Shown: positions 504 through 63,313 of the stretch, piece by piece
How the letters are laid out: each line of letters begins with the position of its first letter
How positions within the stretch are numbered: position 1 is the stretch's first letter
Origin: Bolinopsis microptera
Lineage: Eukaryota; Ctenophora; Tentaculata; Lobata; Bolinopsidae
Length of the DNA: 64,000 bases
Direction: 5' to 3'
Assembly (NCBI RefSeq): GCF_026151205.1
Contig: NC_087081.1
Coordinates: 17,213,058 to 17,277,057, forward strand
The notes under the pieces: generated by a model
The model's database searches: none
Told to the model about the DNA's origin: nothing
What the model saw: only the letters and a program-made list of their open reading frames with translations
Position numbers and translations under genes: made by a program

Positions 504-25660
<25,157 letters not shown>

Positions 25661-43010: not shown

Positions 43011-46000
43011 CTAGGCTCAGGAAATTGTGGGAGTACTTCTCCGGGAGCAGCGGCTAAAACAAAGGCTCTGCGTCGAGTCTGTGCCACCCCGTAACATCCT
43101 GCCTGTAGCACGCCAAACGTGCACTGGTACCTGGTAACACGTGATCAGTAAACCAGTAACACGTGATCAGTAAACCAGTAACACGTGATCAGTAAACCAG
43201 TAACACGTGATCAGTAAACCAGTAACACGTGATCAGTAAACCAGTAACAAGTGATCAGTAAACCAGTAACACGTGATCAGTAAACCAGTAACACGTGATC
43301 AGTAAACCAGTAACACGTGATCAGTAAACCAGTAACACGTGATCAGTAAACCAGTAACACGTGATCAGTAAACCAGTAACACGTGATCAGTAAACTAGTA
43401 ACACGTGATCAGTAAACCAGTAACACGTGATCAGTAAACCAGTAACACGTGATCAGTAAACCAGTAACACGTGATCAGTAAACCAGTAACACGTGATCAG
43501 TAAACCAGTAACACGTGATCAGTAAACCAGTAACACGTGATCAGTAAACCAGTAACACGTGATCAGTAAACCAGTAACACGTGATCAGTAAACCAGTAAC
43601 ACGTGATCAGTAAACCAGTAACACGTGATCAGTAAACCAGTAACACGTGATCAGTAAACCAGTAACACGTGATCAGTAAACCAGTAACACGTGATCAGTA
43701 AACCAGTAACACGTGATCAGTAAACCAGTAACACGTGATCAGTAAACCAGTAACACGTGATCAGTAAACCAGTAACACGTGATCAGTAAACCAGTAACAC
43801 GTGATCAGTAAACCAGTAACACGTGATCAGTAAACCAGTAACACGTGATCAGTAAACCAGTAACACGTGATCAGTAAACCAGTAACACGTGATCAGTAAA
43901 CCAGTAACACGTGATCAGTAAACCAGTAACACGTGATCAGTAAACCAGTAACACGTGATCAGTAAACCAGTAACACGTGATCAGTAAACCAGTAACACGT
44001 GACCAGTAACACGTGATCAGTAAACCAGTAACACGTGATCAGTAAACCAGTAACACGTGATCAGTAAACCAGTAACACGTGATCAGTAAACCAGTAACAC
44101 GTGATCAGTAAACCAGTAACACGTGATCAGTAAAACAGTAACACGTGATCAGTAACACGTGTAACTCACCCCATATTTACGAGTGAAGATAGGCACAGTT
44201 TCAGCACCATGTTCTTCTTGTAAGATACGAAGTTGCGCACGTTTTCAAGCAGAAAGTAGCGTGGCCTGTAAAACTCGCCTGAAAATAAAGTTGTGTAGCG
44301 TGGCCTGTAAAACTCACCTGAAAATAAAGTTGTGTACAATGAGTTCAGGTTCACGTACCTTTGCGAACTTTCTATTTCTATTCGTTTGTAATGGTAGTAA
44401 ATTATGTTTAAAAACAGGCTAGAAAGCGCTTTTCCCTTTTTACCCGTGAAATTTCTCAACTAAATCTAGGCATTACCGGGAGGAACTTACAATAGCTGAG
44501 GTAGGAGGAACTTACAATAGCTGAGGTAGGAGGAAATAAGGCTGTTTTTAAACATGCTGTATTCCCGCGCGTTAAATCTGTTCATCCCACTGAAGCCCTG
44601 AAGAACAGAATTATATTATATAGTAGAATTATCAAAAACAATATTTTTATCTTATAATGCTGCGTTTTAGTGCAAAATTCAAAACATTTTTAGCAGGGTC
44701 GCTTTTTTCACTGTTATCTTTTACATTGAGTCAAGTGAACCGTCGAATCAAATTGTAATGATGTTTGTTTGGTTGTCCTCTATAATATATATATTCTATA
44801 TATATAGAGGGTTGTCCTCTTAAATAAACCTGACAGGGTGGACCCCCACATAAGAGTTCCACTTCACCCTTCTGTGGTATCTGCTGACCCAGTTTGTTAG
44901 TAGGGACCCCATCTATTGCCATCTTCAACACCGCGTTACAATCCTGTTAAACACGTGATATTAAACACGTGATATTAAACACGTGTGATATTAAACACGT
45001 GATATTAAACACGTGATATTAAACACGAGATATTAAACACGTGATATTAAACACGTGATATTAAACACGTGTGATATTAAACACGTGATATTAAACACGT
45101 GATATTAAACACGTGATATTAAACACGTGATATTAAACACGTGACAAGAGATTTTTATAATCTCAGGAAATAGTGATCGTGTAACTTATAACCTCTCCTA
45201 TTTCAATGACCATAGTACACCCTTTACGAGGTGCCACTATTAAGTACAGTAATCTGTTCTGGGTGATTCCAGTTTAAACAGATGAGGTGCAACAAAAAAC
45301 TATGGATCTAGACCAGTAAAGGTCGATAAATAACTACCAGGTTCGAGGGGCCAGCTACCCTTCAACCTTAAAATAGCTACTGAAACATCAATGAATAACC
45401 AAAAGTGGAGTGACTCTCGGAGTTCAAGGAGGGGTGTAGCCAGGATGAAGTGCTCTGGGCAAAGCCGCAAGGACCCCAGTGTGCAGATGAGAACAAAGAA
45501 GTCGCCTAATTTCAACAGTGTTATTAGTTCACAGCATATCACTCATGTGGACCCGGAGAAGGGGAGAGCACTCCCATGCAACTTTATCAAACACAGCATT
45601 AATGTGGGAACGTGGAATGTGTTATCATTGGAGAGCAGTTCCTCAAAGCTGTATGAATTGTCACAGAATATGTCAGCATATAAAATGGATGTCTTGGGGC
45701 TGACAGAGACGCACAGACCCGGCACTGGTGAGGTTACCTTGGATGATGGGTCCCTCTTTATTAACTCAGGAAGAAGTGATGGGTACAGACGACAAGGGGT
45801 TGGTTTAGTCCTCTCGAAGAAGACTAAAAATTCATTGATTTCATACAGTCCGATATCAGAACGTATTCTTGCAGCGAGGCTGCACAGTCGACATATCAAC
45901 ATTTCGATTGTGATAGCTTATGCTCCAACTGAGGATGCAGCAGTCGGAGTAAAGGATGACTTTTATCAGCAGCTATCTGGGGCATTTGATGAACTACCAG

Positions 46001-49000
46001 CTCATGACGTGAAGTTTTTACTTGGAGATCTAAATGCTCGCATTGGCCAAGATAACTCAGCTTGGTCCGGTGTGATTGGTAAGCATTCCCTTCACGTTTC
46101 ATCAAATGACAACGGCCTTCGACTATTAGATTTCTGTGCATTGCATCAACTGACAATCGGTGGGACGCTTTTCCAGCATCGTGATATTCATAAAGGAAGT
46201 TGGAAGTCTCCAGATGGCCGCACAGTAAATCAGATTGACCATGTCTGTATTTCTACCAAGTGGAGTCACTCTCTACTTGACGTAAGATCATGCAGGGGTG
46301 CAGACATTGGCTCCGATCATTATTTGGTTCGGGGTCAATTTAGAGTCAAACTTATGGCAGTTCAAAAAATGAACGCCTCTCGTAGGAAATCTCCAGCAAT
46401 TGAGAATCTTAGAGATCAGTCCAAGGTTGAAGAGTACTGCATTGCTCTTCAAAATCGTTTTAGCTGCCTACCAATGGAGGAGAATCTTGATGGAGAATGG
46501 ACATTAGTTAAGGATACTATTAAAGAAGTGTCTATGGAGGTACTGGGTGAGCGCCCCCGGCGCAGAAAGCAGCAGCATTTGTCTCAGGAGACAAAAAGCC
46601 TTATTGCAGAACGCAGTAAGATTAAACAGATGGCGCCTAGTGACAAAAACAATAGGAGCGAGTATTCTCGGGCCAACAAACTTGTCAAAAAGAGCTGCAG
46701 GAAAGACGACGAGAATTGGGCTCTTAGAGTTGCAGCAGATCTGGAAACAGCTGCTGTCCATGGCCGGCAAAGGGAAGTCTGGCAACGGATAAAAACACTG
46801 TCCGGTAAGAAGAATCGAAAATCAACTGCTGTAAGAGACAAATCCGGGAAGTTGATTGCTGATCCCTCTGCTCAGAGAGAGAGATGGGGAGAACATTTTT
46901 CGGAGCTATTAAACCCTCCTCCCACGAATGCGGATCTGTCTGACCTGGACCATCTTGAAGTGGTTCCATGCTTTCCGTATCTTGGTGATGGTGATGGTCC
47001 ACCCACTGGACTTGAGATTTTAAACTGTCTCAAAAAATTGAAGAACCACAAAAGTGCTGGGATTGACGAAATCTCTAATGAGCAGTTAAAGTATGGGGCA
47101 AGCGGTCTTGTGGATAGGATGGAGAAATTGTTCTCTAAAGTTTGGAATTCAGAAGCAGTGCCTGACGACTGGTTGAAAGGCATCGTGATAATTGTACCAA
47201 AGAAGGGTGATACCTCTCATTGCTCCAATAATAGGGGGATCACTTTAAGATCTACAGCATCGAAACTGTATCAAATCATCATTTTACAACGCATGAGTGA
47301 CGGTTTAGAAAGTTTGCTACGAGACAATCAGTGTGGGTTCAGAAAGAACAGATCATGCATTGATCAGATTTATTCACTCCGCACTATTATACATAACTGC
47401 ATTGAATATAATCTCCCCCTGTATGTTAATTTTGTGGACTTCAAGGCAGCTTTTGATTCTATCGACAGGAATTATATTTGGAAAGCTTTCAGTCATTATG
47501 GCCTGCCATGTAAATACATTCGAATAATACAGGCATTCTTTAATGGAACTGTCAGTGCTGTTAGACACAATGGTGAACTATCAGAATGGTTTGAAGTAAG
47601 TTCAGGCAGTGGCCAAGGAGACATTCAGGGTCCCCCACTTTTTAATGTCTGCCTCAATGTGGCTGCTGAGAGAACAGAAAGCAACAAAGTGGTGTCCCAC
47701 GGAGCGGTTCTTCAAAGATCTATCAGTCCGCTTGTTGATGATATCACTGTGTTAGATACAGACTATGCAGATGACATGGCTGTACTGGATAACAGCGAGG
47801 AAGGTCTTCAAGAAACAACTGACCTTTTGTGTATGTATGGTGCCCAGGGAGGTCTCAGAATCAATGGTAAAAAGACTGAGGCTATGGTCATTGGTAAAGC
47901 AACCTCTCAACGGCCATACACGAAAGAAGCCACAGTGAACATCACTGTTGAAGACACGCCAGTGCAGCAAGTTAGTGACTTTACGTACTTAGGTACAATT
48001 ATTTCCAGCGACGGTACTATCGACCGTGAGCTGTCAGCTAGGATTCAGAAAGCTTCCGGAGCCTTCAATCAACTGAGTAATATATGGAAAAACCGCAACA
48101 TCCAGTCTTATACAAAGATCAGGATTTATAAGGCAGCAGTTTTGACAATATTGTTATATGGTAGTGAGGTTTGGAACACAACCAAAAAGCAGCTACATCG
48201 CTTTGAGGTGTTCCATCAGCGTTGCTTGAGGAGAATACTTAGGATAAGATGGCTCGATCGGGTTAGAAACACTGAAGTGCTGGAGCGTGCAAAGATAAAT
48301 CCAGTAGAGACGTTCATAGGAGCAAACCGCCTGCGTTGGTTTGGCCATGTCACCAGAATGCCAGACACTAGGCTTCCTAAGTACCTGCTTAACTGGACCC
48401 CTGCGCATGGGAGAAGATCTAGGGGCCGTCCAAGAAAGAACTGGATGAAATGTTTGCTGGAAGATGCTGCAGCGTTTACAGGAAACACTGACATAGACCT
48501 AGAAGGAGCGAGCGAGATGGCTAGTGACCGAAAACTTTGGAGGGAGATGATACGTCACAAACGGGAGTTCATTGGTGCAGGCCACTCGAATGATTGAGGA
48601 GACCTAATCAAGTACAAGTAAGTAAGATATTAAACACGTGATATTAAACACGTGATATTAAACACGTGATATTAAACACGTGATATTAAACACGTGATAT
48701 TAAACACGTGATATTAAACACGTGATATTAAACACGTGATATTAAACACGTGATATTAATCAGAAACTTTAACATTTATAATATAACTCATCCAGGTATC
48801 GTTAATTAGGCTCACTAAACACCAACCTCATTGAAAACCTCAGCTTTAGGGTTGTTCAGCTTGTACGCCTGGGCAGCCTCGCTGAAGAACTCAATAGCCC
48901 AGCAAGATTCTGCTACCCCAGCCTGAAATAGAAAATTATCGCTGGAACCTTTTTTGCAGAAATTACACGCATCCAACTAAAATGAAGGTCATTACAGTGG

Positions 49001-52000
49001 ATCGTTTTATTTAGAAATATCGTTTAATCTTATTAATATTGCCCTTAAAAATCAATTTTAAAAACATGTTGAACATTGTGAGTAGTTGTAAGTAGTAGTG
49101 TTGCACTATTAGTAGTAAGTAGTAGTAACTAGTAACTAGTAGTGTTGTACTATTAGTAGTAAGCAGTAGTGTTGTAACTAGTAACTAGTAGTGTTGTACT
49201 ATTAGTAGTAAGCAGTAGTGTTGTAACTAGTAAGTAGTAGTGTTGTACTATTAGTAGTAAGCAGTAGTGTTGTAACTAGTAAGTAGTAGTGTTGTACTAT
49301 TAGTAGTAAGCAGTAGTGTTGTAACTAGTAAGTAGTAGTGTTGCACTATTAGTAGTAAGCAGTAGTGTTGTACTATTAGTAGTAAGTAGTAGTGTTGCAC
49401 TATTAGAAGTAACTAGTAGTGTTGCACTATTAGTAGTAAGTGTTGTAGCTACCTGATGGAACCCCTCTGATAAACCCCCGCACCCCGCAAACACGTCCAG
49501 AGTTCTCAGTTTCCTAAAGGAAGGTTCCTTCCTCTCCAGGTCTACACGCTTCTTTTTCCCTTTGTTACTACACCTGATGTTAGTAAATAGTACACTTACA
49601 GTAACACTGTTATTACCCACTATTATTACCCACTAGTATTACCCACTTGTATTACCCACTATTATTACTCACTATTATTACCCACTATTATTACCCACTA
49701 TTATTACCCACTAATATTACCCACTATTATTACCCACTATTATTACCCACTATTATTACCCACTAATATTACCCACTATTATTACCCACTTGTATTACCC
49801 ACTATTATTACCCACTATTATTACCCACTATTATTACCCACTATTATTACCCACTATTATTACCCACTATTATTACCCACTAATATTACCCACTATTATT
49901 ACCCACTATTATTACCCACTTGTATTACCCACTATTATTACCCACTATAATTACCCACTAATATTACCCACTATTATTACTCACTATTATTACCCACTAT
50001 TATTACCCACTATTATTACCCACTATTATTACCCACTAATATTACCCACTATTATTACCCACTATTATTACCCACTATAATTACCCACTAATATTACCCA
50101 CTATTATTACTCACTATTATTACCCACTATTATTACCCACTATTATTACCCACTATTATTACCCACTATTATTACCCACTATTATTACCCACTATTATTA
50201 CCCACTATTATTACCCACTATTATTACCCACTATTATTACCCACTATTATTACCCACTATTATTACCCACTATAATTATTACCCACTATTATTACCCACC
50301 TAGCCTCAGAGGGGATATCCTCCAGGCTTTTAGTATCTGAATCCCAGCACTCTGAGAAGTAGAAATGGTCGGGGAGAGTTGTGTACCTGCCCAGATCTTC
50401 AATAACCTCCCTGTGTCGCACTGTGCACTTACCTAATATCTTTTCAGCGCGTATTTTAACCTACAGAAAACTTAGATTAGATTTAGACACAATAAATTAA
50501 TATAGCGGTCTTACTATTGCAAGATTCACTGGGTTCCTACAAAAAGGGCTAGGTTATATAATATATATGTTATAATAGGTTATAATTGACTTTAGCTGGT
50601 GTCTACCTGATCTATACTGTAGAAGAGGAGGTTGATGTCGGCTGCCTCCGAACAGAAGTTCTCTATGTTACCATGGTTACCCACTAGGTTCTCTGCACGG
50701 TACATCTTCTTAACAGTCACCTGTAATAAATAGGCCCACTCATAACTTATAATTAATTAGTTGCTGGAGGAACATTCAGTAAAAACTGTGATAATATATC
50801 TCCTATCATTCAAAATGGGAAAAAAAGAGATAGTACTATGATTTTGACTTCTAGTACCTCAATTTGGGATCAAACCAAATTGAGTGACCAATTAGTCAGT
50901 TAACTGTGTCCCTATTTACCTTAACAGAAGATCAATTAGTCAATTAACTGTGTCCCTATTTACCTTAACAGAAGATCAATTAGTCAGTTAACTGAGTCCC
51001 TATTTACCTTAACAGAAGATCAATTAGTCAATTAACTGTGTCCCTATTTACCTTAACAGAAGATCAATTAGTCAATTAACTGTGTCCCTATTTACCTTAA
51101 CAGAAGATCAATTAGTCAGTTAACTGTGTCCCTATTTACCTTAACAGAAGATCAATTAGTCAGTTAACTGTGTCCCTATTTACCTTAACAGAAGATCAAT
51201 TAGTCAATTAACTGTGTCCCTATTTACCTTAACAGAAGATCAATTAGTCAGTTAACTGAGTCCCTATTTACCTTAACAGAAGATCAATTAGTCAATTAAC
51301 TGTGTCCCTATTTACCTTAACAGAAGATCAATTAGTCAATTAACTGTGTCCCTATTTACCTTAACAGAAGATCAATTAGTCAGTTAACTGAGTCCCTATT
51401 TACCTTAACAGAAGATCAATTAGTCAGTTAACTGTGTCCCTATTTACCTTAACAGAAGATCAATTAGTCAATTAACTGAGTCCCTATTTACCTTAACAGA
51501 AGATCAATTAGTCAATTAACTGAGTCCCTATTTACCTTAACAGAAGATCAATTAGTAAGTTAACTGAGTCCCTATTAACCTTAACAGAAGATCAATTATT
51601 CAGTTAACTGAGTCCCTATTTACCTTAACAGAAGATCAATTAGTCAATTAACTGTGTCCCTATTTACCTTAACAGAAGATCAATTAGTCAGTTAACTGTG
51701 TCCCTATTTACCTTAACAGAAGATCAATTAGTCAATTAACTGAATCCCTATTTACCTTAACAGAAGATCAATTAGTCAATTAACTGTGTCCCTATTTACC
51801 TTAACAGAAGATCAATTAGTAAGTTAACTGTGTCCCTATTTACCTTAACAGAAGATCAATTAGTCAATTAACTGTGTCCCTATTTACCTTAACAGAAGAT
51901 CAATTAGTCAGTTAACTGAGTCCCTATTTACCTTAACAGAAGATCAATTAGTCAATTAACTGTGTCCCTATTTACCTTAACAGAAGATCAATTAGTCAAT

Positions 52001-55000
52001 TAACTGTGTCCCTATTTACCTTAACAGAAGACCCATCCAGTCCCTCTTGTTTGGTTGAGAAACTGACGACGCGGCCTATTCTGAAGACTTCTGGAACCAG
52101 GTCGTTATTTCCCTTGATGTAGTCGGTCTTTCTGTAGTATTCTGTGAGATGTCAGATACGGTAGAATTAAACTATTTAAAATATGCAGAAATAGTTCCAG
52201 ACGTTGTAGAACAGTTTTAGAATCATAACTCCATCTTCTAATAGCTTAAGTAATCACGATTAACTTTTTATAACGTACTATCGAGTGTACAGTTTATTCA
52301 CCTGGAAACATTTCGTCATCAACTTTGTCTTTTCTTATTTTTGTGATATTGCTTTTTCCTCTGAAATAAAATGACTTATTTTATCCGTTACTTATCTGTT
52401 ATTCGTAAATTTAATCAGTCTCAGGTATTGTTCACAAACAACAAAATTGCGTAAAAACTACAGACAAATTATGAAAGCTGTTCAGCAGTTCAGGGACATA
52501 TTTTTAATATTCGACTAGATTATTAATTATTATTAATAATTGTAATTTATGATGACGTACCTGGATGGCATTGAGTAAGCGTCTGATCTTACGTAAACAT
52601 AGTCCCCCACATTGTACTCAATGTTCTTGTATTTTAGTACACCTTTCTCTTTTTCTGATAAACATTGTTGTTTTATGCCCAATCGGAGAAGTAGTACAAA
52701 TTCGGAAAATCAATTCCTTTCGAGACAAGTAACGGCCAGGTAGCGCAGTTGGTTAGCCAGCTTTGCAATCGTGAGGTTGCGGGTTCAAATCCCACTGCCT
52801 GCCTGGTCGTGGGGTGAGTGTCGTTGACATTCAGCTAAGGATCGTGAGTGGTCTATGCAGCCCCCCGGTCTACTCAGCCGAATACTCGAGAAATCGGGTG
52901 TGAGGGTTAAATGAGGAGCTGCACATTGCAGCAAAGTCTCGGACGAAGAAAGTATGGTACACACTACCTTAACCGTCACTGGCTAAAAACAAATCCTTCG
53001 GCTTCCTGTAATTGGCTGGTTGCACTTGTGTAACAATATGGCTGTTGGAATACTCCGAAGTAAAATAAGTGTCTAGATTTTTTAAAAAAGTGTGTGGTGC
53101 AAATAACTGGACTGGTTAAAATAAACTGAAGAACAAATTGCCCCCTAACTACTAACTAACTGCTAACCTAAGAAAGGAATATCCCCCCTAACTACTAACT
53201 AACTGCTAACCTAAGAAAGGAATATCCCCCCTAACTACTAACTAACTGCTAACCTAAGAAAGGAATATCCCCCCTAACTACTAACTAACTGCTAACCTAA
53301 GAAAGGAATATCCCCCCTAACTACTAACTAACTGCTAACCTAAGAAAGGAATATCCCCCCTAACTACTAACTAACTGCTAACCTAAGAAAGGAATATCCC
53401 CCCTAACTACTAACTAACTGCTAACCTAAGAAAGGAATATCCCCCCTAACTACTAACTAACTGCTAACCTAAGAAAGGAATATCCCCCCTAACTACTAAC
53501 TAACTGCTAACCTAAGAAAGGAATAGCCGCCCTTTCTCTCTCCCTCCTCCTAGTACAGGCAGGACAGCACCCCTCCTCCTCCTCCCACTCCAGATACTCC
53601 CTTAATGGACACTCAAACCTGACAAAGTTACAATTCTTTAGCTTCAAACCTGACAAAGTTACAATTCTTTAGCTTCAAACCTGACAAAGTTACAATTCTT
53701 TAGCTTCAAACCTGACAAAGTTACAATTCTTTAGCTTCAAACCTGACAAAGTTACAATTCTTTAGCTTCAAACTTTCCAAATATAAATGCAGCAGGAGTT
53801 CCACAAATTGTATCTCAAATATTGAAACATAACAAATGCAGACCAGGGTTGGTAAAACGCGTACCAGGGTTGGTAAAACGACCCTACCTTGCTTTGTCAC
53901 TGTCATACCAGAGCTTAAAGAATAAAGCTGTATCCTTCTTCTCAGGAACTGGCATGCCACCTGAACAGAGTGATTGTTTTATAAGTACTTATAGTAATGA
54001 ACACAGCAAACAACTGTATAATTAATTAAGTGAGAATATTACCTATCATGTTCCAGTTAGGAGGAGGAGGGCAGTAGTTTACAGTAACTTTAGTGAGGAC
54101 AGAGCCTAAAGGAGCGTCATCACACGAGTCCGAGAGAAACAGTTCGCGCTCGTCATGTGCTTCACCAAGTACTGTGTCTCCAGCACGACTAAGAGGGTTA
54201 CTATGGTTACATGTGCTTCACCAAGTACTGTGTCTCCAGCACGACTAAGAGGGTTACTATGGTTACATGTGCTTCACCAAGTACTGTGTCTCCAGCACGA
54301 CTAAGAGGGTTACTATGGTTACATGTGCTTCACCAAGTACTGTGTCTCCAGCACGACTAAGAGGGTTACTATGGTTACATGTGCTTCACCAAGTACTGTG
54401 TCTCCAGCACGACTAAGAGGGTTACTATGGTTACATGTGCTTCACCAAGTACTGTGTCTCCAGCACGACTAAGAGGGTTACTATGGTTACATGTGCTTCA
54501 CCAAGTACTGTGTCTCCAGCACGACTAAGAGGGTTACTATGGTTACATGTGCTTCACCAAGTACTGTGTCTCCAGCACGACTAAGAGGGTTACTATGGTT
54601 ACATGTGCTTCACCAAGTACTGTGTCTCCAGCACGACTAAGAGGGTTACTATGGTTACATGTGCTTCACCAAGTACTGTGTCTCCAGCACGACTAAGAGG
54701 GTTACTATGGTTACATGTGCTTCACCAAGTACTGTGTCTCCAGCACGACTAAGAGGGTTACTATGGTTACATGTGCTTCACCAAGTACTGTGTCTCCAGC
54801 ACGACTAAGAGGGTTACTATGGTTACATGTGCTTCACCAAGTACTGTGTCTCCAGCACGACTAAGAGGGTCACTATGGTTACATGTGCTTCACCAAGTAC
54901 TGTGTCTCCAGCACGACTAAGAGGGAGGGAGGAGGGGTATTTGATAGGGGTTGAGAGGGTGAGGGGTATTTGAGAAAGGAGAGGGAGGAGGGGTATTTGA

Positions 55001-56470
55001 GAGGGGGATGGAAGAAGAGGGGCATTTGAGAGGGATGTGAGGGAGGATGAGGGGTATTTGAGGGATGATGAGGAGTATTTGAGAGGGATGGAGGATGAAG
55101 AGGGGTACTTAGTACTTACTTTAACCAGTGAACGTGTAGAAGGTTTTCACCGCCCTTAGTAAACATAGTGGTGATCCTGCCAATATAAGATGGGATATCG
55201 GGGGTTTCTGGAGCTATTGAAACGTAGTCACCCAGGGATAATGCTTCATTTTCAACCACTGCTGACTTATAAAACACTTTCTTTCCTGATGAATATATTA
55301 AAAGTGGAATTTATGAATTTTTGTCAAATCAATCAATTTTAATAGCACTATTTTAATTTTCGGATCTAAAATAAAATTCATAAAAACCTTCTTTGCATAT
55401 AATGTTTCCAGTAAACTTTCCTTCGATGCTACTAGACACTTTCTTATCTGCCTTTAACTGGGCCACTTTGTTGCTCGGGTCTAAGTTATCCGTTTTATCC
55501 TCTGAGTTCTCCTCGGCCCTCATCACCGCAATGTTTGGACACCTAGCATTATTCATGTCTTAGTTACATTACTATTGATTCGAGACTAGGAGCAATATCT
55601 CTAGTTTTATAGACGGGAACGTTTTCAGATCCTTGACTGTTACGAGAATTTAGAAAACGCACATGCTCTATTGCGCGCGCAAAAGATTAATATATTCAAA
55701 AACCGCGAAAATCAATGCTAACATTACCATTTACATACAACTATGTTTTTTGGTTTTCGCGCGCAGGAGCTTCGGCAAAAGAGATGCTGAACTGAATCGT
55801 GAAGATTGTATTACTATCGCAAAAACTTACTTCCGTTCCATACAGGCTTGCCTCTTTTTGCCCGATCCTCCAAACTTTATCTTATCCTTGCACATGTTGC
55901 ATTCTCCACAATCAGGCATCTTGCATACCTCACATTCATTACACCGTGTCTGCCGTGACTGATGAAATTACGATGTGAGATTAATACTAAGCGGAGTGTT
56001 CCATACCACGCCTTTTTACTGTGTGTTACGCTTTGCTTTAAATGTCAGTTTTTACAAGTTGCATGTTTTTTAGTGGGCAGATTTACAACCAATTAAATTT
56101 CCTATCATTTTGCTAGGGCGCATGCCAAAATAGTCGTCGCCCAGGTAAGATGTGGCCTCTTCTATAAAAACTTAACCCTTATTGGAGGACATTGGTCAAT
56201 AAAATAATGATGTTAGGGCTTGGGGGCCACAAATCTTGTAAAACGTCTCCAATCTTTTGTCTGTAATCAACTCCCTGCCTAATTATTTCAACACCCTATA
56301 AAACTTGTTACCCCCCTTCATCTTCAGGTTCCTTTACTTTCGTTTGGATATATCGCAACGAAATTTGGATGCAGAGCTCGATATTATAGAGTTCAAGAGT
56401 TCACTAGTGTTACCTTCGGCAGGATATCACTGTCGCTAAAGTATAAACTCGATCCGTCCAAAACATCATA
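43011..56470 (-). CDS. DNMT1: DNA (cytosine-5)-methyltransferase 1, C-terminal end not found
   Basis: Maintenance methyltransferase that copies CpG methylation after replication. Eighteen exons, transcript order: 56414-56470, 55831-55958, 55388-55542, 55120-55285, 54043-54188, 53888-53960, 53512-53618, 52561-52654, 52302-52360, 52020-52141, 50607-50720, 50300-50460, 49453-49573, 48827-48922, 44830-44943, 44516-44597, 44170-44278, 43011-43130; all phases join without a stop. Seen in order: CXXC zinc finger ([33 protein letters not shown]); BAH1 ([20 protein letters not shown]); [17 protein letters not shown]2 ([41 protein letters not shown]); motif [36 protein letters not shown]; motif IV GGPPCQ with the catalytic Cys; [20 protein letters not shown]; motif [27 protein letters not shown]. 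The replication-foci domain upstream and the target recognition region with motifs IX-X (QGFPD, GNAVPP) downstream were not found. Several introns carry arrays that copy the exon junctions, and a LINE sits between exons 48827 and 44943. Confidence 0.95.
43131..44163. repeat. 22-bp minisatellite, about 46 copies, filling a DNMT1 intron
   Basis: Unit CAGTAAACCAGTAACACGTG plus AT, almost invariant. It spans the whole 1039-base intron from donor (ATGGG|GTGAGT) to acceptor (TTACCAG|GTACC). The acceptor ACGTGTTACCAGG resembles the unit read on the minus strand (ACGTGTTACTGG). Confidence 0.97.
44255..44333. repeat. 39-bp duplication of a DNMT1 3' splice site and exon start
   Basis: Two copies of a 39-bp unit that, on the minus strand, contains ACTTTATTTTCAG|G and the exon start coding EFYRPRY. 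The inner acceptor gives the exon 44170-44278 that matches the family; the outer acceptor (exon to 44317) would insert 13 in-frame residues. Confidence 0.93.
44481..44530. repeat. 25-bp duplication of a DNMT1 5' splice site
   Basis: Two copies of a 25-bp unit. On the minus strand each holds the exon end CCTCAGCTATT and the donor GTAAGTTCC. The first donor (exon end 44516) keeps the frame (LSYC-EFYRPR after splicing); the second would shift it by 25 bases. Confidence 0.93.
44944..45150. repeat. 14-bp CACGTG array, left half
   Basis: Unit ATTAAACACGTGAT, about 14 copies, beginning at the acceptor of DNMT1 exon 44830-44943. The acceptor ATCACGTGTTTAACAG contains the unit read backwards. The array continues at 48625-48765, split by the LINE. 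Confidence 0.95.
45142..48628 (+). mobile_element. Full-length RTE-like LINE inserted in a DNMT1 intron array
   Basis: Starts in the ATTAAACACGTGAT array, carries one intact ORF (45391-48597), and ends in AAGTACAAGTAAGTAA where the array resumes. It is antisense to DNMT1. A target duplication cannot be seen because both flanks are the same repeat. Confidence 0.9.
45391..48597 (+). CDS. LINE ORF2-like protein: AP endonuclease plus reverse transcriptase, 1068 aa
   Basis: Single intact ORF. Residues about 70-315 form an apurinic-type endonuclease: [42 protein letters not shown] and GSDHYLV are its usual motifs. Residues about 540-850 are the reverse transcriptase: [46 protein letters not shown] and the catalytic TDYADDMAV. 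The C-terminus has [21 protein letters not shown] and [13 protein letters not shown], common in RTE-like and related LINEs. It nicks target DNA and copies its RNA in place. No ORF1 was found, which with the short-repeat 3' end favours an RTE-type assignment; the exact clade is unproven. The lack of stops suggests a young, possibly active copy. The first Met is the assumed start. Confidence 0.94.
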   Translation: MNNQKWSDSRSSRRGVARMKCSGQSRKDPSVQMRTKKSPNFNSVISSQHITHVDPEKGRALPCNFIKHSINVGTWNVLSLESSSSKLYELSQNMSAYKMDVLGLTETHRPGTGEVTLDDGSLFINSGRSDGYRRQGVGLVLSKKTKNSLISYSPISERILAARLHSRHINISIVIAYAPTEDAAVGVKDDFYQQLSGAFDELPAHDVKFLLGDLNARIGQDNSAWSGVIGKHSLHVSSNDNGLRLLDFCALHQLTIGGTLFQHRDIHKGSWKSPDGRTVNQIDHVCISTKWSHSLLDVRSCRGADIGSDHYLVRGQFRVKLMAVQKMNASRRKSPAIENLRDQSKVEEYCIALQNRFSCLPMEENLDGEWTLVKDTIKEVSMEVLGERPRRRKQQHLSQETKSLIAERSKIKQMAPSDKNNRSEYSRANKLVKKSCRKDDENWALRVAADLETAAVHGRQREVWQRIKTLSGKKNRKSTAVRDKSGKLIADPSAQRERWGEHFSELLNPPPTNADLSDLDHLEVVPCFPYLGDGDGPPTGLEILNCLKKLKNHKSAGIDEISNEQLKYGASGLVDRMEKLFSKVWNSEAVPDDWLKGIVIIVPKKGDTSHCSNNRGITLRSTASKLYQIIILQRMSDGLESLLRDNQCGFRKNRSCIDQIYSLRTIIHNCIEYNLPLYVNFVDFKAAFDSIDRNYIWKAFSHYGLPCKYIRIIQAFFNGTVSAVRHNGELSEWFEVSSGSGQGDIQGPPLFNVCLNVAAERTESNKVVSHGAVLQRSISPLVDDITVLDTDYADDMAVLDNSEEGLQETTDLLCMYGAQGGLRINGKKTEAMVIGKATSQRPYTKEATVNITVEDTPVQQVSDFTYLGTIISSDGTIDRELSARIQKASGAFNQLSNIWKNRNIQSYTKIRIYKAAVLTILLYGSEVWNTTKKQLHRFEVFHQRCLRRILRIRWLDRVRNTEVLERAKINPVETFIGANRLRWFGHVTRMPDTRLPKYLLNWTPAHGRRSRGRPRKNWMKCLLEDAAAFTGNTDIDLEGASEMASDRKLWREMIRHKREFIGAGHSND
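48625..48765. repeat. 14-bp CACGTG array, right half
   Basis: About ten copies of ATTAAACACGTGAT following the 3' end of the LINE, same phase and unit as 44944-45150. Confidence 0.95.
49077..49443. repeat. GTAGTGTTGTAACTAGTAAG repeat
   Basis: Irregular array of about 50-base composite units next to the donor of DNMT1 exon 49453-49573. On the minus strand the intron begins GTAGCTACAACACT and the array carries AGTTACAACACT, so the donor-proximal intron sequence seems to be its seed. Confidence 0.9.
49618..50299. repeat. 13-bp array, about 52 copies, carrying a donor-like word
   Basis: Unit CCCACTATTATTA. On the minus strand the DNMT1 exon 50300-50460 ends GCTAG|GTGGGTAATAAT and the array reads AGTGGGTAATAAT over and over. 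It fills most of the intron to exon 49453-49573. Confidence 0.96.
50885..52031. repeat. 44-bp array, about 26 copies, each with a DNMT1 5' splice site
   Basis: On the minus strand each unit holds TCTTCTGTTAAG|GTAAATAG. The first 12 bases are the exact end of exon 52020-52141 and the rest is the start of its intron, followed by GGGACACAGTTAATTGACTA. About 26 identical donors follow the real one. Confidence 0.97.
52732..53080 (+). mobile_element. tRNA-derived SINE, copy 2, in a DNMT1 intron
   Basis: Near-identical to 29548-29896 with the same A and B boxes, antisense to DNMT1, between exons 52561-52654 and 53512-53618. Confidence 0.9.
53139..53525. repeat. 43-bp array, about 9 copies, each with a DNMT1 5' splice site
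   Basis: On the minus strand each unit reads TATTCCTTTCTTAG|GTTAGC. Fourteen bases equal the end of exon 53512-53618 and the rest is its intron start. Because CCTTTCTTAG is also a good 3' splice site, each copy could act in both roles. Confidence 0.96.
53613..53774. repeat. 31-bp array, about 5 copies, each with a DNMT1 3' splice site
   Basis: On the minus strand each unit reads ACTTTGTCAG|GTTTGA, matching the acceptor and first six bases of exon 53512-53618, then AGCTAAAGAATTGTA. Confidence 0.93.
54155..54925. repeat. 56-bp array, nearly 14 copies, each with a DNMT1 3' splice site and exon start
   Basis: On the minus strand each unit holds ACCCTCTTAG| followed by 33 bases of exon 54043-54188 (coding [11 protein letters not shown]), then ATGTAACCATAGTA. 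The last copy in transcript order runs into the true exon. Copies are nearly identical. Confidence 0.97.
54925..55105. repeat. Purine-rich GAGGGGTATTTGAGA repeat
   Basis: Imperfect 25-30-base repeats between the 56-bp array and the donor of exon 55120-55285. Confidence 0.85.
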
Positions 56471-56474
56471 CTGC

Positions 56475-57340
56475 AATGAAATTTTCAAATAAATGGCAAT
56501 CAAGCGACAGAAGAAGATTATGAAACATTACCACTTACCAGAGAATACACTTAAACTTAACTAACGTAATAAACTTAAACATATCGGAACGTAATGTTGT
56601 GCTCCAACTTCTTATAAAGCTCACTCCACAATTAGTAACAAGGGTGATGTCAGTATTTAGCAAATCCGTAGGGAATATAATATATAAATATCGTAGGGAA
56701 TAAGTAATCGGGTTTGGATATATGAGGTGGTCCGACGGCGCTACAATGATGACAAAAGTCTGCTCCTTCACAATATAGACCACTCCCCTATAATTATGTG
56801 TATAAAAGGAACCTATTTTGCGCGCGACGCCAGTTATGTTTTAATTAATTACAGGCCAGTTTTAGGTGCTTGACGACTGTTACACAGGTTTCCATCGGGT
56901 TACAATTTACTCTAATTCATTAATACAGCATATTAGTCATCTGAGCGGATCAATCATCAATATAAGTGTTATTTTGTTGAAACAAGCTTAATAAATTACC
57001 GAGTGATAAAATTCAGCAAGTCAAAACAAATTAAATTATTATATCAGCTGATAAACTCGTGGCCGATTATTTAACAGTTGATCGACACTGAATGGTAAAA
57101 AGCGATTACATATTTAAGAACAGATGTTACTTTACATGTTACTTTATTTCTGCACGCCTAATATTATGAAAACGATTATCACGTGCGCCAAACACCACTC
57201 TGGGATACAGTAAAGTAGAACAATTACATTGTAGGCAGTAGGGATTTTTGATCGTGCGTGGTGTTACCGCGGCGAAATTCTTGTTAAAAGCAGGCCACCA
57301 ATTGATCTACTTACTGTAGGTTCAAAAGACTTTGTTGGTC
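56475..57340. other. No gene recognised upstream of the first DNMT1 exon found
   Basis: Unique AT-rich sequence. Upstream DNMT1 exons (replication-foci domain) were looked for here and not recognised. An 82-residue minus-strand frame at 56535-56783 has no support. Confidence 0.4.
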
Positions 57341-57341
57341 C

Positions 57342-57342
<1 letters not shown>

Positions 57343-57392
<50 letters not shown>
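57343..57392. repeat. Poly-G run of about 48
   Basis: The longest homopolymer G run in the window, preceded by CCCC. Its true length may be collapsed or misread. Confidence 0.93.
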
Positions 57393-57647
57393 CTATACCG
57401 AAACAGCCAGCCCCATAACACAGGTTCAGGGCCAAAACCGCTATCATTCTGATTAGTTATTGTAATAATACAGGCCCCCCTGTATATAAGGTAAGGAGGG
57501 CCAGGGGTGACAGATCATGAATTTGGATAATTCAATTTGGATAATTTCATTTTACGTATAAATAATCTCCGAACGCTGAATGAATTACCAATGTGACCAG
57601 TTAGTAAGTTAGTAGAACAGGATGACTACAAACCATCCCCTGATATT

Positions 57648-57712
57648 AGCACGTGATATTAGCAGGTGATATAGCACGTGATATAGCATAATAGCACGTG
57701 ACTAATAGTCGC
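57648..57712. repeat. GCACGTGATAT repeat, 4-5 copies
   Basis: Short imperfect array with CACGTGATA words, about 300 bases upstream of the protease start codon. Confidence 0.8.
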
Positions 57713-58020
57713 TGACTAGTGATCAGGATATTAAAATATGATAATTCATTAGATTTCTCATTTCATTTAAAATCCTAGTGCCCGTTACACTTAACACTAG
57801 TGTAATTACATATCTTTCTGTTCGCTTTGGTTTAAGCTCTCTCTCTTTAGTTTAGTTTACTTAGTTAGATCAGTAAACTAATGTTCCTACCCAAATAATC
57901 GCTCTATACTATACTGTAGGCACATTTTCTACGAAGTTCCATTCTTTTTCTTGATAATTTAATTTTTCTACAAGTCAGGTTTAAGGTTTTTTGAACGACT
58001 AATTTCATCACAACTGAACA

Positions 58021-61000
58021 ATGCAAATGGTGAGTGAAAGGATAATTTATTGTTGATTTAGCAGCAATAGTACTATACAGACAGATCCGTCTGAAAAAAT
58101 CGATTTACCGGCACACGAAGCTGATTATCCGGCTTTCTAAGGATTTTTGACGTTTTTGAGTTCCATTCGATGTCCCAACCGGTTGACCAACGGCAACTTT
58201 TCCAAACTTTTCCACGTCTTACGGCCACTTTTTCCACTTTTGCCACTTTTTACCACCTTTCTTGTTTGTCGAATATCTTTAGGTGTGAACATCGTAGAAG
58301 GTTACAGATTAATCGAGATTCGAGGGTGTTTATCTTATCAACGAAAAAAACTTTTGTATGAAAAAATTTTCCACCTAATCGGGCAATCATATAATTGGAT
58401 AATTATTAATTAGCTAAATACTTAAAATCATAAAATGATTGGAATCGCTTGAAACACGGAGAAAAATTTCAACAATTTTTCACTTACATCTTTTTTTGAG
58501 ACTTGAAAAATTTCTAAAATTCGGAAAAAAAAGTTCGCCAAAAGTGATAAAATTGCATGAAACGTGCTTTTCAGGAACACTTTGAAAATTTTTCGTGTCG
58601 GGAATAATAAAATCGCAAATATTTATAGTTATTAGTTATTAGTTATTAGTTATGCTAATTCCAGGTTGTTACGCACCTGCTACTGGTTCTGATTGTCATC
58701 CAGTCCATCACTACTGAACAGCCAGGGAAAGCAACAGATGATTGGGGAGACAGTCCAGCGCAAACTTTAATTATTAACGGTGAAGATACTGAAAAGGGAG
58801 AGTACCCCTTTATGGTTAGTCTGTTTATTATTATCAAATATTTACTAGTTATTATTACAAACTGGGCACAAACTAACTATATTGCGTCAGGTACGTGTGA
58901 CGACACTAGAAGGAGACTAACTATAATGCGTCAGGTACATGTGACGACACTAGAAGGAGACTAACTATAATGTGTCAGGTACGTGTGACGACACTAGAAG
59001 GATACTAACTATAATGTGTCAGGTACGTGTGACGACACTAGAAGGAGAATAACTATAATGTGTCAGGTACGTGTGACGACACTAGAAGAAGACTAACTAT
59101 AATGTGTCAGGTACGTGTGACGACACTAGAAGGAGACTAACTATATTGCGTCAGGTACGTGTGACGACACTAGAAGGATACTAACTATAATGTGTCAGGT
59201 ACGTGTGACGACACTAGAAGGAGAATAACTATAATGTGTCAGGTACGTGTGACGACACTAGAAGAAGACTAACTATAATGTGTCAGGTACGTGTGACGAC
59301 ACTAGAAGGAGACTAACTATATTGTGTCAGGTACGTGTGACGACACTAGAAGGAGACTAACTATATTGTGTCAGGTACGTGTGACGACACTAGACGGAGA
59401 CTAACTATATTGTGTCAGGTACCTGTGACGACACTAGAAGAGACTAACTATAATGTGTCAGGTACGTGTGACGACACTAGAAGGAGACTAACTATAATGT
59501 GTCAGGTACGTGTGACGACACTAGAAGGAGACTAACTATAATGTGTCAGGTACGTGTGACGACACTAGAAGGAGACTAACTATAATGTGTCAGGTACGTG
59601 TGACGACACTAGAAGGAGACTAACTATATTGTGTCAGGTACGTGTGACGACACTAGAAGGATACTAACTATAATGTGTCAGGTACGTGTGACGACACTAG
59701 AAGGAGAATAACTATAATGTGTCAGGTACGTGTGACGACACTAGAAGAAGACTAACTATAATGTGTCAGGTACGTGTGACGACACTAGAAGGAGACTAAC
59801 TATATTGTGTCAGGTACGTGTGACGACACTAGAAGGAGACTAACTATATTGGTGTCAGGTACGGTGTGACGACACTAGACGGAGACTAACTATATTGTGT
59901 CAGGTACGTGTGACGACACTAGAAGGAGACTAACTATATTGTGTCAGGTACCTGTGACGACACTAGAAGGAGACTAACTATAATGTGTCAGGTACGTGTG
60001 ACGACACTAGAAGGAGACTAACTATAATGTGTCAGGTACGTGTGACGACACTAGAAGGAGACTAACTATAATGTGTCAGGTACGTGTGACGACACTAGAA
60101 GGAGACTAACTATAATGTGTCAGGTACGTGTGACGACACTAGACGGAGACTAACTATATTGTGTCAGGTACGTGTGACGACACTAGAGGAGACTAACTAT
60201 AATGTGTCAGGTACGTGTAACGACACTAGAAGGAGACTAACTATATTGTGTCAGGTACGTGTGACGACACTAGAAGGAGACTAACTATAATGTGTCAGGT
60301 ACGTGTGACGACACTAGAAGGAGACTAACTATAATGTGTCAGGTACGTGTGACGACACTAGAAGGAGACTAACTATATTGTGTCAGGTACGTGTGACGAC
60401 ACTAGAAGGAGACTAACTATAATGTGTCAGGTACGTGTGACGACACTAGAAGGAGACTAACTATAATGTGTCAGGTACGTGTGACGACACTAGAAGGAGA
60501 CCTAACTATAAGTGTCAGGTACGTGTGACGACACTAGAAGGAGACTAACTATATTGTGTCAGGTACGTGTGACGACACTAGAAGGAGACTAACTATAATG
60601 TGTCAGGTACGTGTGACGACACTAGAAGGAGACTAACTATAATGTGTCAGGTACGTGTGACGACACTAGAAGGAGACTAACTATATTGTGTCAGGTACGT
60701 GTGACGACACTAGAAGGAGACTAACTATATTGTGTCAGGTACGTGTGACGACACTAGAAGGAGACTAACTATATTGTGTCAGGTACGTGTGACGACACTA
60801 GAAGGAGACTAACTATAATGTGTCAGGTACTGTGACGACACTAGAAGGAGACTAACTATATTGTGTCAGGTACGTGTGACGACACTAGAAGGAGACTAAC
60901 TATATTGTGTCAGGTACGTGTGACGACACTAGAAGAAGACTAACTATAATGTGTTAGGTACGTGTGACGACACTAGAAGGAGACTAACTATAATGTGTCA

Positions 61001-63168
61001 GGTACGTGTGACGACACTAGAAGGAGACTAACTATATTGTGTCAGGTACGTGTGACGACACTAGAAGAAGACTAACTATATGTGTTAGGTACGTGTGACG
61101 ACACTAGAAGGAGACTAACTATAATGTGTCAGGTACGTGTGACGACACTAGAAGGAGACTAACTATATTGTGTCAGGTACGTGTGACGACACTAGAAGGA
61201 GACCACATGTGCGGAGGATCTCTAATAAGCCCTCGGATAGTTCTCACTGCTGCGCACTGTGTAGTGTTTGATGGTGTAAAGATAAGTGTAGAGTTGGAAC
61301 GTGTAGTGGTGGGGGACCACACCAGTGAAACTGAGGAAAGTGAGCAGATTGCGGAGGGTAGTCGTATTATTGTTCATGATAACTACCATCTCGACCAACT
61401 CGGAGGTGGGGGGTTAACCAAGTTAACAACTTTTTAAAGATTTAGGGACAAATAATTTCGAGTCTATCATTTTATTACTATATATAATATATACATAAAT
61501 ATTATATGTGATATAAATATAATAATAATAATTTTCACAATTTTTAAGAATACAATTATTAGTAGCAGACATGTAGGTCTAATATAATAATATATACATA
61601 AATATTATATGTGATATAAATATTATAATTTTCACAATTTTTAAGAATATAATTATTAGTTAGCACACATGCAGGTCTAATATAATAATGTTACAGTTCC
61701 TATGAACGACGTAGCGCTGATAGTACTGAAGGAAGAAGTAAGAGTAAAAGAGGGCGTGGTCGCCACCATTGCACTAGCAGAGGATAACAGTCATTACACA
61801 GAAGGAACCTCTGTTACAGTGATAGGATGGGGAGTGATTGGAGACGAGGGGGAGTATGAGGACCTTCCTATTGCAGACACCTTACAGGAACTAGTGTACC
61901 AGATAGCCAACAAGGAACAGTGTGAGCAGTACTGGGCAGATGATTATGAGAAATATGAAGATATGTACGGAGCTGTTGACTATGAGCTGGAAATCCCCGG
62001 TTCGATATTTCTTTGATTTCAAAACGCAGTAATTATATCTATATCTAATAAGTATAAAGTTGCAAAATAATTATCAGAGTAATTTGTGCACGTCTTCTAG
62101 CGTACCGTTAACAATCGCCGACACTATCGTACTGATCCATCTCCCGATCTTCTTAAACTATATATTTCCACAGAGAGTACCGTGTAACCATGGCAACCAT
62201 GATAGTAACTATATATTTCCACAGAGAGCACGATGTGCGTGGTTGATCCTGATCGGGAAGCTACTGCCTTTGCTGGGGACTCTGGAGGCCCACTTTTCGT
62301 GAAATCTGGAGAAAACTTCGCACAAATAGGCTTAGTGAGCTGGGGAGCAGGGGACGCGAAAGAGAAAGCGTACAATATGTTCCTTAACCTCCACCATTAC
62401 ACTGACTGGGTTAAAGCTGCCATTAAGCGTGCTGAAGCAGAGTCATGGTTGGAACTTCACACGGGCGCTAACCATGGGGTGGTGGTGATACACGATAACA
62501 CGGGTCACAAGTCCACTATTTGTAACGAAAATGTGGGTAAAGACGAGGTCAATGCTATTTGCAGAGAACAGGGCTACAAAATGGGAGTTCTGGCTGACGT
62601 TAGAGAGTACAGACCAGATAGGAAACGTAGAAACCAGGATACCACACCATTCGGGCAGACAAATCTGAAATGTAGTGCTGAGGCTAAAGATGTGATGTCA
62701 GAGTGTACAATGGATAAGTACGGCGAGTCTGAAGTGCCGTGTTTTAGCGGGGAGGAACTAGCTGTGAAGTGCTCTAACCAGGTGTGGCACTTCAAGGTAA
62801 CCCGCATTGTGCCCAAAACTAGGACCGTTAAAGGTACCAGCTTTGTAAAGGGTAAGGTAATGTGTGAGGTCACCGCTAGCAAATATGGTATGGACCTGGA
62901 TTTGAAATCTCACGTGAGAGTAGGCCTAGTAATGAGAGGAGTAGATGGTGTAGAGGAAGTAGATGCAGATATGAAATACAAGAGGCGGGTGAACGCTTAT
63001 ACGTCTAAAGTTAAATCTACAGACGAAATAAAAGAGGACGAATGTTTTGCTTGCATTGCTTACGTGGGCGGCACCACAATCTACACTGTAGCAACACATG
63101 GTCCTGAGGATTGTCCTGACATTGACCAACATTACCAGCAGTGGGTGGAGGAGCAACACCACGTGTAA
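58021..63168 (+). CDS. Secreted trypsin-fold protease with C-terminal SRCR domain, 544 aa
   Basis: Five exons: 58021-58029, 58665-58814, 61177-61405, 61697-61999, 62225-63168. All junctions are AG/GT and phases join. The product starts with a signal peptide (MQMVVTHLLLVLIVIQSI). The mature protease starts IINGEDTEKGEYPF. The catalytic triad is complete: His in LTAAHC, Asp in NDVALIVL, Ser in GDSGGP, with VSWG following. A 6-Cys SRCR domain (from about VVVIHDNTGHKSTIC to ELAVKCS) and a Cys-containing tail of about 120 residues follow. Odd points: activation would be after Leu, not Arg/Lys; the position equal to trypsin Asp189 is Thr; Cys191 and Cys220 are replaced (Phe, Asp), so that disulfide is lost as a pair. 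SRCR domains bind polyanions or microbes; an immune or matrix role is only inference. The stop lies in a duplicated 3' end. Confidence 0.93.
58885..61176. repeat. 44-bp array, about 52 copies, each with a protease 3' splice site
   Basis: Each unit reads ACTAACTATAATGTGTCAG|GTACGTGTG...GAAGGAG: branch-point-like ACTAAC, acceptor, and the first 27 bases of exon 61177-61405 (coding VRVTTLEGD). Only the last acceptor leads to full-length protein; every earlier one meets TAA 10 codons in. CAG|GTACGT is also a fair 5' splice site. The array fills almost the whole 2.36 kb intron. Confidence 0.98.
62156..62232. repeat. 51-bp duplication of a protease 3' splice site
   Basis: AACTATATATTTCCACAG|AGAG occurs at 62156 and again 51 bases later. 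The second acceptor (exon 62225) keeps the frame (IP-ESTMCVV); the first would reach a stop after three codons. Confidence 0.93.
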
Positions 63169-63313
63169 TGACGTCACACCACGTGTTATGACGTCACACC
63201 ACGTGTTATGACGTCACACCACGTGTTATGTAGCAACACACGGCCCTGATGATTGTCGTGACATTGACCAACATTACCAGCAGTGGGTGGAGAAGCAACA
63301 CCACCAGAATTAG
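63089..63313 (+). repeat. Duplicated last coding segment of the protease gene, split by a CACGTG array
   Basis: About 78 bases coding VATHG...HYQQWVE occur at 63089-63163 and again at 63231-63313 with about six changes. Between them are three copies of TGACGTCACACCACGTGT(TA). The first copy now ends at a stop made by the array (HHV-stop); the second keeps HHQN-stop, probably the older end. Confidence 0.9.

Follow-up and report, generated by a model that had tools for sequence, protein, structure and literature searches.

Minisatellite-like arrays spanning exon-intron junctions recur in the genome of the ctenophore Bolinopsis microptera

Two neighbouring genes of the ctenophore Bolinopsis microptera carry tandem arrays in which the repeat unit contains a splice junction together with adjoining exonic sequence. 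We analysed a stretch of 64,000 nt of this genome (NC_087081.1, labelled C10, positions 17213058-17277057; assembly of 264.65 Mb in 232 contigs), hereafter the window, in which two genes, DNMT1 (minus strand) and a trypsin-SRCR gene (plus strand), together bear seven such arrays. Arrays of the same kind recur across the genome and are not private to the window. We lean towards regarding them as ordinary minisatellites whose founding tandem duplication chanced to include a splice junction. Their number is mostly accounted for by expectation, although an excess of two- to threefold is possible. An earlier note on this DNA had described splice sites amplified in series; the observation is confirmed as real, and its interpretation is partly supported.

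Junction-spanning arrays in two neighbouring genes

Arrays were detected with Tandem Repeats Finder (TRF), and junctions were taken from gene models of the window genes. In seven tandem arrays a used, modelled junction lies inside the unit, which includes 6-35 exonic nt by TRF (Table 1). Acceptor as well as donor boundaries are hit, and the units differ between genes. The earlier note had listed eight junction repeats in two neighbouring genes on opposite strands. Both genes and seven of the eight repeats were recovered as tandem arrays over modelled junctions, the positions it had given being ends of arrays rather than junctions, whereas the eighth, at the p5 acceptor, is a partial duplication that received no TRF call at score 50 and is not a full tandem array.

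The DNMT1 model has 18 exons (e0-e17, 56470..43011), and all modelled introns are GT-AG. Its spliced form is a single open frame of 674 aa, which matches human DNMT1 (3pta) with 636.6 bits in phmmer, aligned from the CXXC domain onward, and has Pfam matches to CXXC, BAH and DNA_methylase. The human alignment passes without gaps through five of the six junctions checked (e3/e4, e5/e6, e9/e10, e15/e16 and e16/e17), with small gaps around e6/e7. Wrong gene models at the junctions, which would have undone the observation, were thus ruled out for DNMT1 by the open frame, the GT-AG introns and the alignment. In the trypsin-SRCR gene, the introns (58030/58665, 58815/61177, 61406/61697 and 62000/62225) were placed by eye from the reading frame and GT-AG ends. 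The frame-keeping copy in the window junction arrays, as judged from the open DNMT1 frame, is the exon-proximal one.

Some units present AG|GT with good sites on both sides, as in CAG|GTACGT of the protease array and TTTTCAG|GTGAGT of the upstream e16 copy. The centring of most arrays on AG|GT had been taken as special, but it reflects normal junction composition, AG|GT occurring at 62/90 donors and 32/90 acceptors.

Four more DNMT1 arrays contain no exonic sequence but have an end no more than 5 nt from a junction. They lie in the introns that follow e11, e12, e13 and e16, the last of which is array almost throughout. The array that the earlier note had named as lacking exon sequence is one of these and begins right at the e11 donor. 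The share of tandem repeats is 16% in 20 random 10-kb loci, 30% in the window as a whole and 40% within its positions 43000-63400.

Recurrence at loci chosen without regard to repeats

Repeat information was not used in choosing 12 dynein loci from 18 places with PF12774 matches; of the six places left out, three had very long open frames and the other three had only one or two matches. Five of the 70 dynein introns (27-54 nt, in-exon gaps) were removed, one donor of locus L037 was reset by hand to a GC site, and two of the six introns of a CDKL-type kinase gene were removed as well. The remaining 65 dynein introns (median 216 nt) hold 25 arrays of period at least 7 and score at least 50, three of which span a donor, at three of the 12 loci (L030, L032 and L038). 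The dynein extensions L041 and L042, which had no array of score 50, stand outside the counts, and their inclusion would lower the dynein rate.

A second set comprised 20 random 10-kb loci, for which the expectation rests on exons predicted by a caller trained on other genes. This caller, tuned and scored on the same genes, found 93% of junctions, and 67% of its predicted junctions were right. With exons more than half covered by repeats removed, there were 83 strong exons with 156 junctions, six of them covered by an array and three more having an array within 10 nt. Clear donor cases are found at L013, L019 and L027. Doubtful among the six are L015, which may not be a real exon, and L020, where one duplication is counted twice: a 319-bp two-copy duplication spanning a predicted acceptor is found at L020:1566-2201 and again at 7242-7877, 5.7 kb away, which suggests that a larger local segment was duplicated.

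Some host introns appear to predate their array. At L027, an array of a 35-bp unit in about 21 copies sits at the intron that cuts a homeodomain exon after Pfam position 45, which we take to be a well-known, old intron place. Likewise, the intron position of L032 recurs without an array in its paralogue L039.

The reverse order of events, in which introns were gained when exon sequence containing AGGT was duplicated in tandem and the arrays are the trace of this, is suggested by L038. Its intron after DRQIIIR, which the similar paralogue L037 lacks, has the donor in a perfect 55-bp duplication, whose first copy scores higher as a donor than the other (9.6 as against 5.8). However, an intron gained in this manner needs both splice sites in copies of the repeat, whereas each spanning array examined covers a single junction, and among these arrays there was no intron with both splice sites in copies of one repeat. 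Furthermore, the protein alignment places an intron of L032 and one of L039 at most about 1 nt from that of L038. We consider it improbable that the arrays record such gains.

As a separate observation, the duplicated units of L032 (1939-2706) and L038 (4271-4380; both oriented) begin at the codon border NLK| in L038 and 1 nt later in L032. This border is an intron position in the paralogues L031 and L035, and the unit extends just past the next donor, so that it corresponds to nearly one exon of L031/L035, which may be chance. Three dynein heavy-chain genes, at C3:8954112, C1:6100405 and C4:10070153, have open frames of 3357, 3703 and 2539 aa and coexist with a dozen intron-rich paralogues.

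Frequency of junction-spanning arrays relative to chance

The earlier note had judged chance overlap of arrays and junctions unlikely, a judgement that ignored short introns and dense repeats. We compared the counts with two null models. When seeds were placed randomly and exonic seeds purged, all 42 arrays in 90 introns gave 10 spanning cases, where the expectation is 6.9 for seeds kept within the host intron (P = 0.09) and 3.8 for gene-wide seeds (P = 0.002). Dynein alone gave 3/25 against 1.7-1.8 (P = 0.19-0.27). The second null model compared seed coverage of junctions with that of random intron points: 3/130 versus 1.4% for dynein, 6/156 versus 2.3% for the random loci and 7/50 versus 4.8% (P = 0.009) for the window. 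Since the window was picked for its arrays, only the dynein and random loci are fair sets. Pooled over all arrays, these gave 9 spanning cases, compared with 5.3 expected (P = 0.09); counting L020 once lowers the figure to 8 (P = 0.17). Moreover, arrays of any kind covered 2.4% of junctions in the unbiased set, compared with 1.5-5.1% at 14 other intron offsets.

Several results weigh against chance inclusion as the whole account. Clean arrays, a class defined after the data had been seen (units of 18-160 bp, score at least 100), spanned junctions in 7 cases of the fair sets against 2.2 expected (P = 0.008), an approximately threefold excess, and in 6 against 2.2 (P = 0.026) without the doubtful L015. 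Arrays that end no more than 10 nt from a junction but do not span it numbered 9/42 against 2.2-3.7 (P = 0.0003-0.005), and in dynein alone 3 against 1.1-1.2 (P = 0.08-0.12). The remaining results come from units inspected without gene models. A strong donor or acceptor was present in 8/38 random-locus units (18-160 bp, score at least 80), where random segments gave 1.6 and dinucleotide shuffles 2.0, and the excess held over both controls at all ten thresholds tried. Dynein units had strong splice-like sites in 4/8 against 0.9 in random segments, and in 3/8 against 0.3 in shuffles. Pure survival of junction-containing duplications makes no prediction of such an excess. The window units gave 3/32, against 1.6 in random segments (P = 0.19) and 0.8 in shuffles.

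These results would suit a second explanation, in which junctions are hot spots of minisatellite birth through transcription- or splicing-linked damage such as R-loops or polymerase pausing at exon ends. Clean-array coverage by distance from the junction also counts in its favour, being 1.4-2.1% at 0-30 nt, 0.4-0.7% at 40-125 nt and 0-1.5% beyond, in a profile whose 4-nt intronic rule leaves out two spanning arrays, L038 and L027. On the other hand, the excesses concern few arrays (4-7) in post hoc classes, and the pooled count of all arrays exceeds its expectation only at P = 0.09. A genome-wide search for tandem triples of the donor word CAGGTRAGT gave 8 distinct arrays, tallied by eye among the matches listed (up to C5:13.82 Mb), against 9 for a dinucleotide-matched shuffle; this comparison has little power because the word is no commoner than the shuffle as a single site (4370 versus 4742). 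Matches to tandem triples totalled 783 for CAGGTRAGT and 402 for the shuffle. A reversed-motif control, with which the word had seemed strongly enriched (783 versus 7 triples), was discarded, as the apparent excess shrinks against the matched shuffle. We regard a hot spot at junctions as a tentative possibility. Thus, the proposal of the earlier note that duplication starts at junctions finds some backing in the clean arrays and none in the number of motif arrays among the matches listed, and its suggested comparison with random intron positions yields, at the sampled loci, an excess that ranges from small to about threefold depending on the array class counted.

Splice sites in the additional copies

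Up to 8 copies were scanned in each of 14 spanning arrays, and in 9 of these arrays the copies retain a splice site that scores within about 2 bits of the one in use. L038 and L013 have a weaker site in the adjacent copy and L030 a stronger one; for L032 and the protease array the copy scan lost register. Across seven arrays, the splice core varies between copies at 5/48 positions and the other positions at 33/284 (P = 1), and 22/187 exonic and 16/145 intronic positions of the units vary. The extra copies therefore look unconstrained, their splice core being no less variable than other positions. In 11/14 spanning arrays the unit length is not divisible by three, so that splicing at a neighbouring copy would change the reading frame.

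It could be argued that the additional copies serve a function, either in stepwise (recursive) splicing, where they would act as ratchet points, or as alternative splice sites, given the sites of similar strength in most arrays and the units with AG|GT good both ways. However, ratchet points would call for a constraint on the splice core that is not detectable, most units would shift the frame, and AG|GT occurs only at background frequency. A function of the copies is highly improbable in our judgement. The lack of constraint and the frame-shifting units instead fit the other option raised in the earlier note, namely that near exons only those duplications survive that keep a good splice site.

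At the array edges, the 32-nt self-match of the e15 array at period 25 amounts to a 7-nt repeat, and this array could hence have begun by slippage. No microhomology was found at the edges of the L038 duplication, and most other two-copy arrays were too degenerate to judge.

Table 1. Junction arrays and exons of the window genes, and donor-spanning arrays of the dynein loci. Positions are those of the window.
Feature	Position	Strand	Unit and copies	Details
e4 acceptor (54188) array	54154..54925	minus	56 bp x 13.8	35 exonic nt per unit; exon-start motif at 14 places
e6 acceptor (53618) array	53613..53773	minus	31 bp x 5.2	6 exonic nt
e6 donor (after 53512) array	53141..53533	minus	43 bp x 9.1	exonic 22 nt by TRF, 14 exact; donor motif at 9 places
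e9 donor (after 52020) array	50889..52031	minus	44 bp x 26	12 exonic nt; exact donor motif at 25 places
e15 donor (after 44516) array	44479..44535	minus	25 bp x 2.3	20 exonic nt
e16 acceptor (44278) array	44256..44336	minus	39 bp x 2.1	23 exonic nt, one mismatch at second base
Trypsin p3 acceptor (61177) array	58872..61203	plus	44 bp x 53	27 exonic nt
p5 acceptor (62225) partial duplication	62156..62260	plus	two copies, about 51 bp apart	about 25 nt common
e11 donor-adjoining array	49605..50299	minus	13 bp x 53	begins right at e11 donor (e11 ends 50300); no exonic sequence
e12 donor-near array	49088..49447	minus	49 bp	begins 5 nt past donor
e14 acceptor-near array	44947..45144	minus	14 bp	ends 3 nt before acceptor
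e16-e17 intron array	43134..44155	minus	22 bp x 40	14 nt past donor to 3 nt before acceptor; no exonic sequence
L030 dynein donor array			18 bp	exonic 12 nt by TRF, 5 exact
L032 dynein donor array			62-65 bp x 12	about 53 exonic nt
L038 dynein donor array			55 bp x 2	perfect duplication; 53 exonic nt
DNMT1 exons e0-e3	56470-56414, 55958-55831, 55542-55388, 55285-55120	minus		spliced model
DNMT1 exons e4-e7	54188-54043, 53960-53888, 53618-53512, 52654-52561	minus		spliced model
DNMT1 exons e8-e11	52360-52302, 52141-52020, 50720-50607, 50460-50300	minus		spliced model
DNMT1 exons e12-e14	49573-49453, 48922-48827, 44943-44830	minus		spliced model
DNMT1 exons e15-e17	44597-44516, 44278-44170, 43130-43011	minus		spliced model
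Trypsin-SRCR gene	58022..63168	plus		Pfam on two open frames
Trypsin-SRCR exons	first ends 58029; p2 58665-58814, p3 61177-61405, p4 61697-61999, p5 62225-63168	plus

Surroundings of the two genes

C-terminal exons of DNMT1 were found about 112 kb beyond e17, at C10:17136132-17143824 on the minus strand; a genome search with the C-terminal part gave five matches in all, those of this region. Between e17 and these distant exons lies the CDKL-type kinase gene (window 25489..1873), on the same strand. An open frame of 431 aa at window 34505-35797 is without any Pfam match.

The 14-bp unit of the array at 44947-45144 is seen again at 48626-48759 in a DNMT1 intron, with a long interspersed nuclear element in between (45334-48597), which has a single open frame of 1087 aa with Pfam matches to endonuclease and reverse transcriptase. 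CACGTG is contained in 11/61 window arrays, where 0.7-1.7 are expected, compared with 1/108 at the random loci and 0/29 at the dynein loci. These arrays, at window 725, 955, 3749, 8600, 12878 and 23059 as well as 43134, 44947, 48626, 57641 and 63156, form a local cluster with a common E-box-like core.

Discussion

The explanation towards which we lean can be set out as follows. Founding duplications would arise in a minisatellite-dense genome with short introns, where they would often touch an exon end. Duplications wholly within an exon would presumably be purged by selection, whereas those containing a junction would survive because the exon-proximal copy still supplies a working splice site, and the other copies would become intron. 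The copy adjoining the exon body would be the one spliced, probably by exon definition, and the array could then grow unconstrained by slippage or unequal exchange. Added to this may be a modest, about threefold tendency of the cleaner arrays to arise at junctions, which is possible but not established. The broader version of that tendency, in which minisatellites are born preferentially at splice junctions throughout the genome, owing to transcription- or splicing-linked breaks, and intron ends are continually rebuilt from amplified junctions, seems to us rather unlikely.

The arrays are a natural experiment on splice-site choice by the spliceosome, with up to 53 near-identical sites on offer, and also on whether exon ends are fragile sites. 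If true, the junction bias would offer a way for exon-intron borders to shift or arise.

Hellsten and co-workers have reportedly described intron gain by tandem duplication of AGGT. The same process is attributed to Rogers in PMC3087553. The present arrays are similar to it in the tandem duplication of a segment with a splice-like AG|GT, but here an existing junction was duplicated, at one intron end only. Ordinary intronic minisatellites share with our arrays the unit lengths, the similarity of copies and the free variation between them, the difference being that the founding unit here includes exonic sequence.

The earlier note knew of no described system of this kind, yet one exists in amphioxus. 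Its mirages are minisatellite-like duplications over intron-exon boundaries in Adh3 and the globins BflGb6 and BflGb9, located at the 5' or 3' boundary and, as judged by the authors' reverse transcription PCR, leaving normal splicing undisturbed (PMC3087553); PGBD5 is similar, and Adh and troponin C are cited too (PMC3902484). The arrays of Bolinopsis and amphioxus are alike in that the unit spans the exon-intron boundary with exonic sequence on the donor or acceptor side, that AG/GT signals occur in many copies and that units differ between genes. The structure that defines a mirage is found in seven window arrays, three dynein arrays and six random-locus places, the doubtful L015 and twofold L020 included. 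By contrast, the arrays described here reach up to 53 copies, with seven arrays in two neighbouring genes, and are known from one assembled sequence. The nuclear-receptor DNA-binding domain (PF00105), in which amphioxus differs, gave no match in the Bolinopsis genome, a weak negative given that the control genomes gave none either. The present arrays are thus a new occurrence of mirage-type repeats, in a genome where they recur, which takes these repeats from a curiosity in a few amphioxus genes to a genome-recurrent feature of another animal.

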